DNA of 64,000 bases from Halobacteriales archaeon YIM A00010 (GTDB lineage: Archaea; Halobacteriota; Halobacteria; Halobacteriales; Haloarculaceae), in the NCBI GenBank assembly GCA_025041175.1, contig JAKCFJ010000001.1:124001-188000 (forward strand). The letters run 5' to 3'. Below are positions 23,125 through 57,841 of this stretch, piece by piece (positions within the stretch are counted from its first letter, which is position 1; each line of letters opens with the position of its first letter). The notes under the pieces were generated by a model, which saw only the letters and a list, made by a program, of their open reading frames with translations, ran no database searches and had not been told where the DNA came from. Position numbers and translations under genes: made by a program.

Positions 23125-23234
23125 ATAGGGGCTGTTGTGATTCCGTACCGCTGTGGCGACACAGAACGGTTCGTGAACCCCCAGAGCAGTTGTCAGTCAA
23201 CGTCCGTGCCGAACATACTCACAACAGTCCCTAT
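23125..23234 (+). repeat. Inverted-repeat element family 2, copy E (110 bp)
   Basis: The element is bounded by ATAGGGGCTGTTGTGA and CACAACAGTCCCTAT. It matches, in reverse orientation, the 110-bp element at 53452-53561 with only scattered differences, including the shared CGCTGTGGCGACACAGAACG core. It has no coding capacity. Size and termini suit a non-autonomous miniature transposable element; no matching transposase is in the window. Confidence 0.85.
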
Positions 23235-50226: not shown

Positions 50227-51570
50227 ATGGGATTGTTCGATCGACTACGCGGTGATGACGGACCGCGGGTTGCGTTCATCGGTATCGACGGCGTGCCGTA
50301 CAGCCTCATCGCCGACAATCCGGACGAGTTTCCGAATCTGACGGCGATGGAAGACGCCGGCGCGGCGGGGGCGATCGACAGCATCGTTCCCCCGGAGTCG
50401 AGCGCGTGCTGGCCGTCGCTCACGACGGGCGTCAACCCCGGTGGAACGGGCGTGTACGGCTTTCAGGACCGAGAAGTGGGGTCGTACGAGACGTACGTTC
50501 CGATGGGTCGAGACGTGCAGGCGACCCGGCTGTGGGATCGCGTCACGGACGCTGACCGTGATGCGACCGTCATGAACGTCCCGGTCACGTTCCCGCCCCA
50601 GCGGAACGTCCAACGGATGGTGTCGGGTTTTCTGTCTCCCAGCGTCGAGAAGGCCGCGTACCCCGACGATCTCCGTGAGTCGTTGGAGGGGATGGACTAC
50701 CGCATCGATGTAAACGCGAAGCTCGGCCACCAGGACGACAAAACCGAGTTCATGGAGGATGCCCACGAAACGATCGACGCGCGTTTCGAGGCGTTCAAGC
50801 AGTGTATCGAGGAAGACGATTGGGACCTCTTTTTCGGGGTCTTCATGACCACCGATCGGGTCAACCACTTCCTGTTCAAGGATTATGAGGAGGGTGGGGA
50901 GAACTCCGAGGCGTTCATGGAGTTCTACCGGAAGGTCGATGAGTACATCGGTCGGCTCCGCGATCTGCTCGGTGACGACACGACGATGGTCGTTGCGAGC
51001 GACCACGGATTCACCAGCGAGGAGTACGAGGTCCACCTCAACACGTGGCTGCGCGAGCAGGGGTGGCTCGATTACCGCACTGACGATCACAGCGAGCTGT
51101 CGGACATCACCGATGACACGCGCGCCTACTCGCTCATTCCCGGCCGGTTTTACATCAACCTCGAAGGACGCGAGCCACGCGGCAGCGTGCCCGAATCGGA
51201 GTACGAAGACACCCGCGAAGAGCTCACCGAGCTGATCGAGGGGTTGGAGGGACCGGACGGAACGCCGGTCGCACAGCGCGTCGTCACCGACGCCGACGCC
51301 TTCCGCGGCGACCACGACGACATCGCACCGGATCTCGTCGTGATTCCGAACCACGGCTTCGACCTCAAAGCCGGTTTCAAAGACGACACCGACGTGTTCG
51401 ACGTGGGTCCCAGAAACGGGATGCACAGCTTCGAAAACGCGTGTCTGTTCGTCGACGATCCCACCGCGCGGATCAACGATGTCGACCTGTTCGACATCGC
51501 GCCGACCGTGCTCGATCTGATGGAGATCGAGTACGACCGGACCGCCTTCGATGGGGCCAGCTTGGTCTAA
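50227..51570 (+). CDS. Alkaline phosphatase superfamily phosphodiesterase/phosphotransferase
   Basis: A 447-residue protein of the type I phosphodiesterase / nucleotide pyrophosphatase group. Metal-site strings are FIGIDGVPYSL (first Asp), SSACWPSLTTGVNPG (nucleophile Ser/Thr region), FMTTDRVNHF (Asp and His), VVASDHGFTSEEYEVH (Asp-His) and the late GMHSFENACLFV (His). No signal peptide is visible. Enzymes of this kind are frequent in haloarchaeal glycosylation islands and may add or remove a phosphodiester on a glycan. A GT-C-type gene follows 77 bp downstream. Confidence 0.85.
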   Translation: MGLFDRLRGDDGPRVAFIGIDGVPYSLIADNPDEFPNLTAMEDAGAAGAIDSIVPPESSACWPSLTTGVNPGGTGVYGFQDREVGSYETYVPMGRDVQATRLWDRVTDADRDATVMNVPVTFPPQRNVQRMVSGFLSPSVEKAAYPDDLRESLEGMDYRIDVNAKLGHQDDKTEFMEDAHETIDARFEAFKQCIEEDDWDLFFGVFMTTDRVNHFLFKDYEEGGENSEAFMEFYRKVDEYIGRLRDLLGDDTTMVVASDHGFTSEEYEVHLNTWLREQGWLDYRTDDHSELSDITDDTRAYSLIPGRFYINLEGREPRGSVPESEYEDTREELTELIEGLEGPDGTPVAQRVVTDADAFRGDHDDIAPDLVVIPNHGFDLKAGFKDDTDVFDVGPRNGMHSFENACLFVDDPTARINDVDLFDIAPTVLDLMEIEYDRTAFDGASLV

Positions 51571-51647
51571 CTACGAGATCGAATCGCCGCCTTCGCGTTT
51601 TGGTAGTAGGTGGATTTAACCGTGATAGCGACGATACCACGTGGTAG

Positions 51648-53471
51648 ATGCACCGCTCGCGTCTGTTCGCGCTCTTTTTACTGGGGACCGTCGTCCACGT
51701 CGAGTCGCTGGGGTATTGGTTCGTGGCGGTCGACTCCCCGAAACTGATCCTCTCGAGCCGGATCGCTGGCTGGGGCGACGCGGCAGCGATATTCACGCAG
51801 CCGTTGATGCACGAAACGGAGTTCACGACGCTCGCGCTGTTCTATCGACCGTTCGCTAGCCTTTCGTACTCCGTCGACTACTGGGTGTGGGGGATGGATC
51901 CGTTCGGCTATCACCTCACGAATCTCCTCCTCCAGGGCGTGGCAGTGGTGTCGGTCGCGGTCGTCGTCGGGGAACTGACCCGCGACGCGGCGGTCGGACA
52001 GCTCACCGCCGCGTTGTTCGCGTTGCATCCGCTCACAGCGGAGGTCGTGCCGGCAGCACCGCGCCGACACGACGTCCTCATGTTGATCTTCCTGCTCGGG
52101 TCGCTGGTGCTGTTCGTGAGGAGCCAGCGCGAACGTGGTGTGTCGCGGCGGGATTCGGCCTTGTATTTCGGTGGATCGCTCGTGGCGTACGTGCTCGCGC
52201 TCGGATCGAAGGAACCTGCGGTTATCGTTCCCGCGTTGATTTTCGTGTGGGCGGCGCTCCAGCACGATGGGGATCCGTACAGGACCCTGTGGCGGTCGGT
52301 GTGGGTCACTGTCCCGTTCGGTGTCCTAACGGTCGCGTATCTCGCCGTTCGGGTTGCGGTGTTGGGTGAACTCGGTGGCTACCGCGGGAGCAGTGTGGTG
52401 TTCGAGGACGTGGGCGGAATGGTGGCGGCGTATTTCGTCTCGATCGTGTATCCGATCGACGTTCTGGGCAACGGACTCGCTGCCGGCGGGCTGTGGATCG
52501 GGGCGGTGTTTCTCGTGGGGGCGCTCCTCGTGCTCGTCGCGCTCTGGGCCGCTGGATCGGTCGCTGTTGGTCGCATCGGCGCGATGAACGTTCTGCTGGT
52601 CGCGCTTTTTGTGGGCGGTTGTGCCCTGCTCGTCGTGGGGATTCCCTGGGCCGGCTGGGAACCGTTCGATCCGATCGGTGAGCTACTGCCCCCGCTCACC
52701 CCCTCGCCGTACCCACTCTCCCACACCACCACCGGATTGCTCCTCGGGGGGACGTCTCTGGTCGGTGGGCTGTGGGCGCTGTACGCCCGTCGGTGGACGG
52801 GCGAGCGGATCGATCTCCCGACCCTCGTGGTCTGCACCGTCTGGCTTGCCATCCCACTCGTGCTGTACGTCCAGGGCCATCAGTATCTGGTCCGGACGGG
52901 GTACGCATCGATCGTTCCACTGATGGCGATCCTCTCCATCCTCCTCGTCAGCGCGGTCCGGGAACTCCGGGCCAGCGGCCGGACACTCGATCCCAACGCT
53001 GTGCTCGTCGGCATCGTTCTGTTGGTACTCGTTCCACAGGCCGCCGCCTCACCCCTGTTTCATCCGTACGATGGCTGGCAGGAGTCAGGCGAAGTGAATC
53101 GAATGGTGTTCAACGGACTCGCAGACCAACTCACGGAGCAAGACGACGTCACGACCCTGCGAGTCCGCGGACTGCCGAGCGGAATCACGAGCGATTCGTT
53201 TCCCGGAGTGAGATCGGTCGTCTACCCCGGTGCCCAGGCCACCGGATCGTGGCTCAAGCTCTCTTACCCCGGCCGGGAGCTAGCAGTGCACAACGACGGC
53301 CGCACCCATCTCCAACGCGTCCCCGTGGGTGTTTCGGTCAACACCACCAGGGACACCGACACCCTGACCGCAACGCTCCACTACGAGCACAACGACACCG
53401 AACGCGTGGCTCCGTATCGCTCACACGAACGCCGAGCGAGCGCCACGGCTCATAGGGACTGTTGTGCGTAG
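51648..53471 (+). CDS. GT-C-type polytopic membrane glycosyltransferase (TMTC/PMT-like)
   Basis: A 607-residue protein with about 12 membrane helices in the first 450 residues. FYRPFASLSYSVDYWVWG and GYHLTNLLLQG closely follow the pattern of TMTC/O-mannosyltransferase-like GT-C proteins, and ALFALHPLTAEVV is also typical; the TPR tail of TMTC proteins is absent. Such enzymes take polyprenyl-phosphate sugars on the outer face. The last six sense codons (HRDCCA) and the stop codon lie within the 110-bp element at 53452, so the native C-terminus has been replaced. A TATA-like GATTTAACC lies about 30 nt upstream of the ATG. Confidence 0.78.
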   Translation: MHRSRLFALFLLGTVVHVESLGYWFVAVDSPKLILSSRIAGWGDAAAIFTQPLMHETEFTTLALFYRPFASLSYSVDYWVWGMDPFGYHLTNLLLQGVAVVSVAVVVGELTRDAAVGQLTAALFALHPLTAEVVPAAPRRHDVLMLIFLLGSLVLFVRSQRERGVSRRDSALYFGGSLVAYVLALGSKEPAVIVPALIFVWAALQHDGDPYRTLWRSVWVTVPFGVLTVAYLAVRVAVLGELGGYRGSSVVFEDVGGMVAAYFVSIVYPIDVLGNGLAAGGLWIGAVFLVGALLVLVALWAAGSVAVGRIGAMNVLLVALFVGGCALLVVGIPWAGWEPFDPIGELLPPLTPSPYPLSHTTTGLLLGGTSLVGGLWALYARRWTGERIDLPTLVVCTVWLAIPLVLYVQGHQYLVRTGYASIVPLMAILSILLVSAVRELRASGRTLDPNAVLVGIVLLVLVPQAAASPLFHPYDGWQESGEVNRMVFNGLADQLTEQDDVTTLRVRGLPSGITSDSFPGVRSVVYPGAQATGSWLKLSYPGRELAVHNDGRTHLQRVPVGVSVNTTRDTDTLTATLHYEHNDTERVAPYRSHERRASATAHRDCCA

Positions 53472-53561
53472 TTTCGGCACGGTCGTTGACTGTCGAGTGC
53501 TCTGGTGTTTCACGAATCGTTCTGTGTCGCCACAGCGGGACGGAATCACAACAGTCCCTAT
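53452..53561 (-). repeat. Inverted-repeat element family 2, copy F (110 bp, inverted)
   Basis: The element is bounded by ATAGGGACTGTTGTG and ATCACAACAGTCCCTAT and is the reverse complement of the element at 23125-23234 with few differences. It lies exactly between two convergent genes: it supplies the stop (TAG, 53469-53471) of the GT-C gene, and its last base is part of the stop codon of the flippase gene on the other strand. Confidence 0.9.
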
Positions 53562-54592
53562 CACTCGTTCCGGTCGGTGGGTTCGTCTCGGTGAGCGGTG
53601 TCCGGGTTCGGCGTTTGGTTCGCCTCCGCGTTGGTGGGATCGCTCCGCAGTTGATAGAGCGTGAAGACGACAGCCCCAATGAGCGCGCCGTACCACAGCG
53701 TTCCGGCGCGGACGAGGAGCGTCGACCCGACAGCCACCGGTCGAGCGTAGCCGACTGCGATGAGGGTGCCGACCATACTGGCCTCGGTGGCTCCGACGCC
53801 GCCGGGAAGAAAACTCACCGCTCCGATGATCGAGCCGAGTCCGAAGACGGACAGCCCGAGGACCGGATCGGCACGAGCGCCGAATCCCTCGATGACGACC
53901 CAGAACGCCAGCCCCTCTAGCCCCCACGCCAGCAGGCTCAGCCCCATCGCAACCCCCAACGGCCGCGGACGGAACAGCGCGTACGTCTGCTCGTACAACG
54001 CCGTCAGTTCCGTCACGTGTGAGCCGACAACCGGTAGCCCCTCACACAACGAGAGCGCTCGGAGACAGAGCCACCGCCATTGGAGGACGATCAACCCCCC
54101 GAGAACGACGACCGCGATCCCGATCAGCACGACGATCGAGCGCTGGTACAACAACACGGCCAACGCGGCGAAGCTACTCAGCGCGAGGAGGTCCGTGATC
54201 CGTTCGGCTCCGATGGCCGGCACCGTCCGGCGCACCGGGACCCCCTCGAGATCGCGGAGAAACCACGCTTTCCACACCTCACCCACCTTTCCCGGCGTGA
54301 CGACGAGCATCAGCCCGCTGAAAAACACGACCGCGCTCTCACGGACCGAAAGCTCGATGTCGAGGGTGCGGAGGTAGTACTCCCATTTCAGAAACCGGAC
54401 GCTGTAGCCGAGCAACACCAGTCCGAACATCACACCCACAGCGGTCGGATCCACGTCAAGCAGCGCCACCACGACCGCGTTCGCGTCACCGAACAGAAAG
54501 AGCGCGAAAAACACGACGAGCGTGCCCAGTGCCGTCAACCCCACTCCGTAATCGGACACCACGCCGACGCAGTAGCGAACGACCCCCCTCAT
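53561..54592 (-). CDS. Flippase-like membrane protein (LPG synthase TM / UPF0104)
   Basis: A 343-residue protein with about eight to nine membrane helices. Family marks are GYSVRFLKWEYYLRTLDI, FFSGLMLVVTPGKVGEVWKA (the TPGKxGE motif), AIGAERITDLLAL (ERxxD) and FLPGGVGATEASM (PGGxGxxE). Relatives transfer or flip lipid-linked groups. The start overlaps the stop of the PHP gene by 4 bp, making it the last gene of a three-gene operon. The C-terminus is a polar tail ending next to repeat F. Confidence 0.87.
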   Translation of the reverse strand: MRGVVRYCVGVVSDYGVGLTALGTLVVFFALFLFGDANAVVVALLDVDPTAVGVMFGLVLLGYSVRFLKWEYYLRTLDIELSVRESAVVFFSGLMLVVTPGKVGEVWKAWFLRDLEGVPVRRTVPAIGAERITDLLALSSFAALAVLLYQRSIVVLIGIAVVVLGGLIVLQWRWLCLRALSLCEGLPVVGSHVTELTALYEQTYALFRPRPLGVAMGLSLLAWGLEGLAFWVVIEGFGARADPVLGLSVFGLGSIIGAVSFLPGGVGATEASMVGTLIAVGYARPVAVGSTLLVRAGTLWYGALIGAVVFTLYQLRSDPTNAEANQTPNPDTAHRDEPTDRNE

Positions 54593-55278
54593 CGTCCGTG
54601 TCCGCGACCGGGAGCGAATCCGGCAATCCGATCCACCGACTCCCGAAGCTGGTGTGCTTTCGTTGCGATATGACCGGAGAAATAGCCACCGCGACCGCGG
54701 GCGACGACCTCCGCCGGCTGGGTCTCCAGCGCGTTGAGGAGCGGTCGATCACCTTCGACTACTGTGTGCGCCCGGCCGATCTCCATCGGGAAGTGGGCGT
54801 CGCTCCCGCCGGTCGTCGGGAGACCGTGGGCGTGGGCGAACGCCCGCGCCCGGTCGTTGTCCCGCGACAGGAGACAGCGCGAATTGCAGATTTCGACTGC
54901 ATCGACCGCGTCGGCGATAGCGCCGAGATCGGTGTCGTACTGCTGTCGGAGCCGATCGAACGGGTGAGAGAGTATCGCCACGCCCCCCTGCTCGTGAACG
55001 CACTCGATCACTGCCACCGGGTCGTCCGGGGCGGGCGGCTCGTCCACTCCCAACGCGAGGAGGTGTCCCTGGCTCGTCGTCACCTCGACGCCGGGGATCA
55101 CCGTCAGCTCCGCCGGTGCTGCCGTCCGAACGGCGTTCACCCCCTCGAGCGTGTCGTGGTTCGTCACAGCGATCCCGTTGAGTCCGTGCTCGACGGCTGT
55201 CGTAGCGACGGCTTCGGGCGCTGCGTTCGAACACGGTGAGGCGTCCGTGTGCACCTGCAGATCGTAGGTCCGCGTCAT
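54589..55278 (-). CDS. PHP-domain phosphoesterase
   Basis: A 229-residue stand-alone PHP protein. Metal-binding motifs in order: DLQVHTDASPCS, VTNHDTLEG, IPGVEVTTSQGH, ILSHPFD and GGSDAHFPMEIG. The family hydrolyses phosphomonoesters or short nucleic acids. The start overlaps the UbiA stop (ATGA) and the end overlaps the flippase start, so it belongs to the same operon. By position it is a candidate for a lipid-linked sugar phosphate phosphatase (inference). Confidence 0.88.
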   Translation of the reverse strand: MTRTYDLQVHTDASPCSNAAPEAVATTAVEHGLNGIAVTNHDTLEGVNAVRTAAPAELTVIPGVEVTTSQGHLLALGVDEPPAPDDPVAVIECVHEQGGVAILSHPFDRLRQQYDTDLGAIADAVDAVEICNSRCLLSRDNDRARAFAHAHGLPTTGGSDAHFPMEIGRAHTVVEGDRPLLNALETQPAEVVARGRGGYFSGHIATKAHQLRESVDRIAGFAPGRGHGR

Positions 55279-56186
55279 TGCATCGTCTCCATGATGAGGA
55301 TCGGCACCTGGTAGAGCACACCGATAGTAACGACCAGCCACGACAGCAACGTGAAAACCATCGGGCGGTCCGTCAGGAGATACTCGGGACGGCCGGCCAC
55401 CGTCGTCGTGTGAACGAGGTGGTGATACCGGAACACGCCGTAAAAGACGAACGGAAGCGCGAGCATCATCGGCGTTTCCGCGTGGAAAAACGTGTACAGC
55501 GCGTAGGTCATCAACAACACCGCCATCGTCACCACGAGCAGCTGATCCAGCTCCTCGTTGGTGTACACGCCGAGCGACTCCCGTGTCGCGTCGGGGTTCG
55601 AGACGGTTTCGAGCTCGTGGCGCCGTTTCCCGACCGCGAGCACCAGCGCCAACAGAAACGTACAGAGGATGAGCCACGGGCTGAGATACACGCCGATAGC
55701 GGCGACGCCCGCAGCCGCTCGCAGAACGAACCCGATCCCAACCGTGAGCACGTCAACTAACACGACCTCCTTGAGAAACACGGAGTAGACCACGTTCTGT
55801 CCGAGGTATCCGAGAAGAACGGCCAACACCCAACCGTCGACGACGTACCCAACGAGCAGCCCGCCCACTAGCAGCCCCACCGCGAACACTCCCGCCACCG
55901 GCACCGAGAGCTGCCCGCTTGCGATCGGTCGGTGCTGCTTTTCGGGGTGTTTGCGGTCTTCCTCCCGATCACAGATGTCGTTGATGACGTACACCGCTCC
56001 GGCCACCGCGGTGAACGCCGCAATCGCACCGATGACGCTCCGCCACGCCGGAATCGAAAGCAGATTGCGGGAGAACACCAACCCCAACAGCAGAATGCCC
56101 TGCTTGTACCACTGGTGGGGACGAAGCTCGCGGAGCAATCCCCGTATCGTGTCTCCCGATTGGGAAGTGATCGAGCGATTGGACAT
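55275..56186 (-). CDS. UbiA prenyltransferase, polyprenyl-phosphate phosphoribosyltransferase type
   Basis: A 303-residue integral membrane enzyme with about nine helices. RPHQWYKQGILLLG at the start, VINDICDREEDRKHPEKQH followed by RPIASG (first Asp-rich motif), YSVFLKEVVLVDVL, GFVLRAAAGVAAIGVYLSP and VGKRRHEL match the layout of DPPR synthase (mycobacterial Rv3806c), which joins PRPP to decaprenyl phosphate, rather than that of quinone or GGGP-type UbiA enzymes. The ATG at 56186 fits; the longer frame overlaps the divergent promoter. First gene of the operon with the PHP and flippase genes. Confidence 0.8.
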   Translation of the reverse strand: MSNRSITSQSGDTIRGLLRELRPHQWYKQGILLLGLVFSRNLLSIPAWRSVIGAIAAFTAVAGAVYVINDICDREEDRKHPEKQHRPIASGQLSVPVAGVFAVGLLVGGLLVGYVVDGWVLAVLLGYLGQNVVYSVFLKEVVLVDVLTVGIGFVLRAAAGVAAIGVYLSPWLILCTFLLALVLAVGKRRHELETVSNPDATRESLGVYTNEELDQLLVVTMAVLLMTYALYTFFHAETPMMLALPFVFYGVFRYHHLVHTTTVAGRPEYLLTDRPMVFTLLSWLVVTIGVLYQVPILIMETMQ

Positions 56187-56247
56187 TGATGACAGCGAAC
56201 TACGCAGGCCACAATCAAAAAGGGCCACGGCGCAAATCCCATATTCT

Positions 56248-57333
56248 ATGGGAACGGACTCTGGAGCTGATCGGCCGAACGGCTCGGCGTTGGTCACTGG
56301 CGGAACGGGATTCCTGGGACTCCATACGTGTCAGTATTTAGTCGATAACGGGTGGGACGTGGTGGCATTCGACCGCGTTCCGTTCACCGAGGAGGATGAC
56401 GTGTCGGGAATCGAGTACGTCGAGGGCGACGTTCGGGACGAGGACGCGGTTCGGGGGGTGATCGACAGGTTCGAACCGGACGTCGTCGTTCACGCCGCGG
56501 CTGCCCTGCCGTTGTGGGACGCCGACACGATCCGGGAGGTCACAATCGACGGGACGCGCTCGGTGCTGTGGGCGGCCGAGGAGGCAGGCGTCGATCGCGT
56601 GGTGTACATCTCCTCGACGGCCGTCTACGGCGTTCACGAGGAGCATCCGATCACCGAATCCTCGCCGCTCGACGGTGTGGGTCCGTACGGGAACGCGAAG
56701 GTCCAAGCCGAAAAGCTGTGCGGGGATTTCCGTCGTCGGGGGCTGTGCGTCCCGATCCTCCGGCCGAAAACGTTCATCGGTCCCCAGCGGCTCGGCGTGT
56801 TTCAGGTGCTGTTCGACTGGGTCGAAAGCGGTGCGAACATCCCGCTGGTGGGGTGGGGAGACAACGAATACCAGCTCATGCACGTTCACGACCTGGTTCG
56901 GGCCATCGAGCTCGTGTCGACGGATGATCCCGAGCGCGTCGACGACACGTTCAACGTCGGAGCGACGGAGTACGCCACGATGAAAGCGGACTTTCAGGCG
57001 CTCATCGACCACGCCGGCACCGGCAAACGCGTGGTCGGAACCCCGGCACTAGTGACCGTGGCCGCGCTCAGGATACTCGACGAACTGAACCTGTCGCCGC
57101 TGTACCCGTGGATCTACGAGACGGCCCACCACGATTCGTACGTGTCGATCGAGAAACTCCGTGGGCTGGGCTGGGAGCCGGAGTATTCGAACACCGAGGC
57201 GCTGATCGACACGTACGACTGGTATCTCGACCACTACGAACCGAGTGAGGCGTCCGACACCGGGTTGGATCACCGCGTTGCGTGGGATCAAGGCGCGCTC
57301 GCGCTGGTCAAGCGCGTGTTTCAGGCGTTCTGA
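56248..57333 (+). CDS. Extended-SDR NAD-dependent epimerase/dehydratase
   Basis: A 361-residue protein with the NAD-binding TGGTGFLGLHTCQYL (GxxGxxG), DVRDEDAV, VVHAAAALPLW, the catalytic Ser and Tyr-Lys pair in YISSTAVYG and GPYGNAKVQAEK, and RPKTFIGPQRLGVF. It resembles UDP-glucose 4-epimerase and 3-beta-HSD-like enzymes. It is divergent from the UbiA operon across only 61 bp, which links their regulation. Epimerisation of a lipid-linked or nucleotide pentose is an attractive but unproven role. Confidence 0.85.
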   Translation: MGTDSGADRPNGSALVTGGTGFLGLHTCQYLVDNGWDVVAFDRVPFTEEDDVSGIEYVEGDVRDEDAVRGVIDRFEPDVVVHAAAALPLWDADTIREVTIDGTRSVLWAAEEAGVDRVVYISSTAVYGVHEEHPITESSPLDGVGPYGNAKVQAEKLCGDFRRRGLCVPILRPKTFIGPQRLGVFQVLFDWVESGANIPLVGWGDNEYQLMHVHDLVRAIELVSTDDPERVDDTFNVGATEYATMKADFQALIDHAGTGKRVVGTPALVTVAALRILDELNLSPLYPWIYETAHHDSYVSIEKLRGLGWEPEYSNTEALIDTYDWYLDHYEPSEASDTGLDHRVAWDQGALALVKRVFQAF

Positions 57334-57415: not shown

Positions 57416-57841
57416 ATGATACACACCATCGTCGATGATCCCGGTTCGTTGGCACCGGCTACGCTTCGAGAACGGTATACAGCGGAGCTTCGAGCGGTCA
57501 TCAAGTCGGTTGGCGCGGAAACCGCTGCCGAGCAGACGGAAGTCGACCGCGATCGGATCGACGCGATCGCTGGTGACGGAGCTGAGGTTCCCATGTCGGA
57601 GGCGGCGGCCGTGTTCGCGCTGCGCGATGGAACCCCTGACGCCGAGACGATCGAGATCGAAGCCCGCGATGCGCTCCTCATGGGGATGACGACGGCGGTG
57701 TTGGATGTCGAGACGCTCGAAAGCGAGATCGACGGCCGGATCGAGGCGCGCGCGATCCAGCAGAAGGTCGAGGGACGGACGCCCATGACGCTCGAGGAGT
57801 TCGCGCTCCTCTATGGGACGATCGAGGCGCGCAAGGCATGA
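57416..57841 (+). CDS. DUF5791 family protein
   Basis: A 141-residue haloarchaeal protein with LRERYTAELRAVIKSVGAET, VDRDRIDAIAGDGAEVPMSE, AAAVFALRDGTPDAETI and GRTPMTLEEFALLYGTIEAR. The even helical pattern suggests a small helical fold; function unknown. Its stop overlaps the next start by 4 bp (ATGA). Confidence 0.8.
   Translation: MIHTIVDDPGSLAPATLRERYTAELRAVIKSVGAETAAEQTEVDRDRIDAIAGDGAEVPMSEAAAVFALRDGTPDAETIEIEARDALLMGMTTAVLDVETLESEIDGRIEARAIQQKVEGRTPMTLEEFALLYGTIEARKA

Follow-up and report, generated by a model that had tools for sequence, protein, structure and literature searches.

We infer that five genes of the Halobacteriales archaeon YIM A00010 (GenBank assembly GCA_025041175.1) form a unit that makes a dolichyl-phosphate-pentose donor and transfers its sugar, a reading to which we give a probability of roughly 0.78 and in which each catalytic step is proposed. 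The genes lie at positions 51648-57333 of the window, the whole 64,000-nucleotide stretch that was analyzed (contig JAKCFJ010000001.1, positions 124,001 to 188,000 of the forward strand). A UbiA-superfamily protein would convert phosphoribosyl pyrophosphate (PRPP) to dolichyl-phospho-ribose-5-phosphate; a PHP-family protein would take off the 5′-phosphate of the lipid-linked ribose-5-phosphate; and a GalE-like short-chain dehydrogenase/reductase (SDR) would epimerize a single carbon of the lipid-linked ribofuranose to yield a xylofuranose (Xylf), arabinofuranose (Araf), or similar donor. An LPG_synthase_TM protein would then flip the lipid-linked pentose across the membrane, and a GT-C protein would attach it, on the outer side, to a glycan or glycoprotein of the cell surface. 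The placing of the PHP step before the SDR step, the identity of the sugar, and the acceptor are likewise what we infer.

The UbiA protein can be assigned firmly to the decaprenyl-phosphate phosphoribosyltransferase family (DPPR synthase, DPPRS), and profile scores, the closest solved structure, and phylogeny all agree with the original prediction on this point. Its top NCBIfam models are decaprenyl-phosphate phosphoribosyltransferases (PRK12324.1-2; E = 7e-65, 219 bits). The best solved relative is the Mycobacterium tuberculosis DPPR synthase Rv3806c (PDB 8j8j/8j8k; E = 3e-27 over the full length, residues 2-290), ahead by more than 10 orders of magnitude of the next protein family in the PDB match list (E = 5e-3). 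Residues N69, D70, D73, D77, R188, and E191, which make up the NDxxDxxxD motif and the R/E pair of loop IV, are invariant in 17 haloarchaeal sequences; the same motif and pair have been studied in bacterial DPPRS-type enzymes (PMC11127046). In a maximum-likelihood tree, a branch with 100/99 support separates haloarchaeal, methanogen, and bacterial DPPRS-type UbiA proteins, together with Rv3806c, from other archaeal UbiA proteins, and the haloarchaeal DPPRS-type sequences form one group (100/100). Two orthologues encoded on plasmids are labeled decaprenyl-phosphate phosphoribosyltransferase in RefSeq.

Co-conservation across the Halobacteria, on which the original prediction had been made to depend, is strict. 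Among 194 sampled genomes of the class, UbiA occurs in 17, and the SDR (E ≤ 1e-60) occurs in exactly the same 17 (P = 9e-25, hypergeometric, ignoring kinship). The PHP gene (E ≤ 1e-70) is found in 16 of these 17 and in one further genome (G066); the seventeenth (G146), whose cassette is rearranged, carries a divergent copy (E = 8e-39). Five genomes that lack UbiA also show weaker PHP matches (E = 1e-35 to 1e-40). We rejected G066 as a case of an orphan PHP gene: it holds a decayed cassette of which a C-terminal fragment of UbiA, PHP, and the flippase remain. The order and orientation SDR-UbiA-PHP-flippase are kept in nearly all intact loci (in Haloarcula, Halococcus, Halalkalicoccus, Natrialba, Natrinema, and others). 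Two genomes (G088 and G169) have two copies of the cassette, and a third (G173) has an extra broken copy.

The layout in the window is as had been described from the sequence: UbiA, PHP, and the flippase-like gene form one minus-strand operon with 4-bp overlaps (ATGA) at each junction, the start of the divergent SDR gene lies 61 bp from that of UbiA, and the GT-C-like gene and an alkaline-phosphatase (AP) superfamily gene, both on the plus strand, converge on the operon. The same six genes are found in the nearest named genome, Halocatena pleomorpha, where UbiA is 87% identical. The layout is not a matter of chance, as nearly all intact haloarchaeal loci examined have the SDR-UbiA-PHP-flippase block arranged in this way. 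The limits of the unit can be read within the genus. The window-type GT-C is present in all five Halocatena genomes that have UbiA (two of which look near-identical) and absent from the two that lack it. In these two sister species (G183 and G198) we see an empty site: the phosphodiesterase gene of the AP superfamily, ~0.94 kb, and then a homologue of the gene at 57416-57841, which in the window lies downstream of the SDR. The GT-C, flippase, PHP, UbiA, and SDR genes thus come and go together, and the unit is five genes.

Outside the Halobacteria, we read the loci of 14 sampled genomes of the phylum with a DPPRS-type UbiA, taken as methanogens and their relatives. PHP lies near UbiA in nine of the 14 and a flippase homologue in eight, so the system is not haloarchaeal only: methanogens also have the UbiA-PHP-flippase core. 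The five loci without a nearby PHP gene comprise cut contigs (L103 and L106), damaged UbiA genes (L114 and L115), and a different layout (L109), in which UbiA is accompanied by an SDR homologue of 51% identity and a PMT_2 protein. A DUF362 protein of ~355 aa is conserved in seven of the methanogen-side loci (L102, L104, L105, L107, L110, L112, and L113), and none was seen as a common neighbor in the haloarchaeal cassettes. The partners of bacterial UbiA are of other kinds: a HAD phosphatase and GtrA in Lactococcus, PAP2 in Marivivens and Rhodococcus, and elsewhere UbiA proteins of the size of a HAD fusion, or a FAD oxidoreductase with an SDR. None of the 18 bacterial loci has a PHP protein related to the archaeal ones.

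The flippase-like protein scores 85 bits against TIGR00374 (cut-off 43), and its gene is conserved alongside UbiA and PHP. In three methanogen loci (L108, L111, and L115) its place is taken by a nonhomologous SMR/EamA-like protein of ~120 aa; in mycobacterial and O-antigen systems, the flippase is proposed to be an SMR protein (PMC11127046). This exchange supports a flippase role for the LPG_synthase_TM protein, to which the gene context points strongly. In Haloarcula-type cassettes, the flippase gene is followed by one for a VTT-domain membrane protein (e.g., L029:11809-12501) that weakly matches the undecaprenyl-phosphate transporter UptA and is possibly a transporter that recycles the carrier lipid.

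No protein of the set is better conserved than the SDR, which has 69%-75% identity to the window protein across the haloarchaea and invariant TGGTGFLG (TGxxGxxG) and YxxxK (Y147/K151) motifs. Homologues of 36%-42% identity are encoded beside or near bacterial UbiA: they adjoin it in Streptomyces and Nonomuraea and share a cluster with UbiA and an SMR protein in Sinorhizobium and Rhizobium. The motifs and the company it keeps point strongly to an epimerase of the lipid-linked pentose. The donor had been predicted to be a polyprenyl-phospho-ribose or -arabinose; nothing favors arabinose. No DprE1-like FAD oxidoreductase is found among the annotated neighbors of the cassettes in L118-L120 (no genome-wide search was made), and the closer functional precedent for the SDR is the Citrobacter GalE-like SDR, which converts ribofuranose (Ribf) to Xylf (PMC11127046). 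With a single SDR and no DprE1 beside it, xylofuranose would be at least as likely a product as arabinofuranose.

The window GT-C protein has no Pfam match of its own, and its AlphaFold model is too poor for use (pLDDT 37). We place it among GT-C enzymes because a homologue of the window GT-C (P0005) in another locus (L065, genome G157; 37% identity, E = 8e-77) carries a PMT_2 domain in the same open reading frame (E = 1.6e-13). Other cassettes have different GT-C proteins in its stead, of PF15971 (the DolP-mannose mannosyltransferase family, where DolP is dolichyl phosphate) or PMT_2; a PF15971 member adjoins the Natrialbaceae cassettes. Genes for GT-C proteins (PF15971 and PF13231) lie within 3 kb of 13 of 19 cassettes. 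Across 17 genomes, 15 of 84 GT-C matches lie no more than 3 kb from a cassette, where 0.25 would be expected (P = 5e-22, Poisson, ignoring kinship), and the window GT-C is one more beyond those counted. The DolP-mannose mannosyltransferase of Haloferax, AglS, works outside the cell, where it moves mannose from dolichyl phosphate onto the glycan (PMC3871713). The recurrent pairing with GT-C genes argues strongly that the GT-C protein transfers the lipid-linked pentose. We also observe an arylsulfotransferase-like gene near the cassette in ~10 haloarchaeal loci (e.g., L027:12255-13673 and L118), and a sulfotransferase and an adenylyl-sulfate kinase near one plasmid locus; these neighbors hint at sulfated glycans.

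The dephosphorylation step had been assigned to the PHP protein as a replacement for the mycobacterial phosphatase. The context supports this well, though short of proof: in the archaeal phylum, the PHP gene follows UbiA in haloarchaea and methanogens, and so occupies the place that in bacteria is held by a HAD or PAP2 phosphatase or a fusion of HAD size. No HAD or PAP2 phosphatase is annotated among the neighbors of the archaeal cassettes. The nearest solved relatives are 7ug9 (a 5′-3′ exoribonuclease), 3e0f, 9etk, and 2yb1; the protein is thus closest to phosphoesterases that depend on metals, 7ug9 and 2yb1 among them. Seven motif residues are invariant (H10, H41, E65, H72, H105, D160, and H162; motifs HxH, DH, E, H, and DxH), of which we take the metal-binding ones to be as is general for the family. 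The AlphaFold model is again too poor for use (pLDDT 55). The context of the gene argues strongly that the PHP protein acts as the phosphatase.

Several observations weigh against a pentose donor-and-transfer unit. At 219 bits, the window UbiA falls 15 bits under the NCBIfam equivalog cut-off of 234, an annotation threshold rather than a biochemical criterion, which an orthologue in G057 passes with 241 bits. Three loci from metagenome-assembled genomes (L043-L045) lack the SDR inside the fetched flanks, and the Haloarcula-type cassettes (one in G115 and two in G169) have no GT-C gene close by. We found no report of a pentofuranose in haloarchaeal glycans in the open-access literature searched. 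In the haloarchaeal PHP proteins, a Gln replaces the first His of HxH and the SDG Asp is missing, so their catalysis is not to be taken for granted.

This altered metal motif also speaks for the reading that survives best beside our own, in which the donor pathway is the same but dephosphorylation happens elsewhere, the PHP protein being a phosphodiesterase or a quality-control or recycling enzyme that acts on misflipped or spent lipid intermediates. A parallel exists in rhizobia, where the proposed phosphatase NoeN is partly replaceable: deletion of noeN merely reduces arabinosylation (PMC5080398). However, the haloarchaeal proteins keep the seven motif positions, the methanogen ones have a canonical HxH, and the gene stands where bacteria have HAD or PAP2 enzymes. 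We therefore consider a phosphatase elsewhere to be the less probable arrangement, if one to be taken seriously.

It is less probable again that the pathway ends in a prenylated ribose, as a lipid or a secondary metabolite in its own right, which the flippase and GT-C neighbors would export or modify. UbiA-superfamily enzymes use many acceptors, and the window protein matches a range of UbiA models. Against this, the GT-C genes that recur nearby are of several families and include that of the DolP-mannose mannosyltransferases, which argues for use of the product as a sugar donor.

The original prediction had also counted the AP-superfamily gene at 50227-51570 as part of the system, and it does adjoin the GT-C gene in Halocatena cassettes. 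This is not borne out. The gene is kept in all seven Halocatena genomes (84%-93% identity to the window in the other six), including, at 84%-85% identity, the two that lack all five other genes, and it was not found near the cassettes of other genera. Retention where the unit is absent shows that the phosphodiesterase belongs to the neighborhood and lies outside the system; membership is rejected for Halocatena and very improbable in general. Slighter still is the chance that the UbiA protein is one of the ordinary archaeal prenyltransferases for lipids, quinones, or carotenoids: all of these are of the UbiA superfamily, and the protein matches other UbiA models weakly, but its scores against the geranylgeranylglyceryl-phosphate (GGGP), quinone (menaquinone), heme, and chlorophyll models do not exceed 50 bits, and both profiles and tree reject a lipid, quinone, or EboC-type identity, including the grouping with GGGP or menaquinone enzymes that had been set beforehand as the refuting outcome.

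Table 1. Features of the pentose cassette and its flank in the window (positions are those of the window)
Feature	Positions	Strand	Evidence	Proposed role
Type I phosphodiesterase, AP superfamily	50227-51570	+	Pfam Phosphodiest 4.2e-48	Flanking gene, outside the unit
GT-C-type membrane glycosyltransferase, 607 aa, ~10 transmembrane segments	51648-53471	+	Homologue-based	Putative pentose transferase outside the cell
Flippase-like protein (LPG_synthase_TM / TIGR00374)	53561-54592	-	PF03706 2.5e-40; TIGR00374	Putative lipid-linked pentose flippase
PHP-family phosphoesterase	54589-55278	-	Pfam PHP_C 1.2e-14, PHP 7.1e-7	Putative 5′-phosphatase of polyprenyl-phospho-ribose-5-phosphate
UbiA-superfamily polyprenyl-phosphate phosphoribosyltransferase, DPPR-synthase type	55275-56186	-	Pfam UbiA 7.8e-29; NCBIfam, PDB, tree	
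61-bp divergent intergenic region	56187-56247	.	Sequence	Presumed promoter region of both transcription units
Extended SDR, GalE-like	56248-57333	+	Pfam Epimerase PF01370 1.2e-42	Putative lipid-linked pentose epimerase

A 110-bp element resembling a miniature inverted-repeat transposable element (MITE) occurs at 53452-53561 and again at 23125-23234, with 15-bp terminal inverted repeats (ATAGGGACTGTTGTG). The repeat has 89 occurrences in the genome (≤1 mismatch) versus none for the reversed control, mostly as inward pairs spanning ~110 or 210 bp. The copy at 53452 lies between the GT-C and flippase genes and provides the last codons of the GT-C gene together with its stop; five relatives lack the repeat in the matching regions. 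The assembly (5.97 Mb in seven contigs, 3.9% contamination) is larger than most of the genus (3.7-4.0 Mb, with one genome of 5.3 Mb), and may thus include some duplicated or foreign sequence.

The cassette is found on four haloarchaeal plasmids as well as on chromosomes. In the published genome of Halanaeroarchaeum sulfurireducens M27-SA2, the table of phage-like elements includes three genes that lie near one another (HLASA_2009, 2010, and 2012), for a PHP protein, a decaprenyl-phosphate phosphoribosyltransferase, and an NAD-dependent epimerase (PMC4866403). We found no relative in the viral contigs scanned with the UbiA profile, and a phage collection yielded a single record, unannotated and derived from human feces. 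Its distribution, the plasmid copies, and the phage-like listing indicate that the cassette is patchy and probably mobile. We suggest, tentatively and as a somewhat doubtful extension, that it could be a mobile island of glycan diversification: an invariant donor core (UbiA, PHP, SDR, and flippase), carried on plasmids and a prophage-like region and gained or lost as a unit, would be paired with changing GT-C transferases and would switch the pentose decoration of the surface and perhaps susceptibility to viruses, much like the serotype-converting gtr cassettes of bacterial phages.

If the pathway is as proposed, it would be the first described archaeal route to make and use lipid-linked pentofuranoses, as far as the open-access literature searched shows, and would give archaea a testable pathway for surface pentoses. 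A PHP phosphoesterase would stand in for the HAD or PAP2 phosphatase of bacteria, which bears on the question of which phosphatase works in DPPR pathways. The roles of three poorly assigned protein groups (the cassette PHP, the SDR, and the flippase-like family) become directly testable, and the cassettes would offer an example of donor machinery held constant while transferases are exchanged.

Four known systems invite comparison. In the Haloferax AglD-AglR-AglS route (PMC3871713), a single sugar is likewise loaded onto dolichyl phosphate and flipped before it joins the N-glycan outside the cell; there, however, mannose is charged by the glycosyltransferase AglD, whereas in the cassette UbiA would supply a pentose from PRPP. 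The mycobacterial decaprenyl-phospho-arabinose pathway (Rv3806c, Rv3807c, DprE1/E2, Rv3789, and Emb/Aft) has the same UbiA family, followed by a phosphatase, epimerization, flipping, and GT-C transfer. It differs in its PAP2-type phosphatase, FAD-dependent DprE1 with DprE2, and SMR flippase, none of which is annotated beside haloarchaeal cassettes, although SMR/EamA proteins are present in the three methanogen loci. Orthologues of the rhizobial noeC, noeH, and noeO, from the noeCNHOP operon for Nod-factor arabinosylation, belong to that mycobacterial pathway, and within the operon noeN is the proposed phosphatase gene (PMC5080398). This system is bacterial, and the rhizobial loci read showed no related PHP; other rhizobial plasmids encode a UbiA of HAD-fusion size, a homologue of the cassette SDR, and an SMR protein.

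The general bacterial scheme runs from PRPP to polyprenyl-phospho-ribose-5-phosphate, through dephosphorylation and an optional epimerization by a GalE-like SDR, to flipping and GT-C transfer (PMC11127046). The three-component pentofuranosylation of Citrobacter youngae O1/O2 (PMC11127046) shares with the cassette, as we read it, a DPPRS-type UbiA, a ribose-5-phosphatase step, a GalE-like SDR (Ribf to Xylf), a flippase, and a GT-C acting outside the cell. Its fused HAD phosphatase, MATE flippase, and GT136 GT-C correspond in the archaea to PHP, LPG_synthase_TM, and what appear to be other GT-C families. Where the three-component systems join PPPRS and a HAD domain, the archaeal UbiA stands alone beside a separate PHP gene, and an LPG_synthase_TM protein takes the place of the MATE flippase; in both, the GT-C is encoded with the donor genes, and the GalE-like SDR with its TGxxGxxG and YxxxK motifs matches the O2 variant. 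Because the logic is similar and the HAD and MATE components differ, we regard the cassette as an archaeal variant of the bacterial pentofuranose systems.

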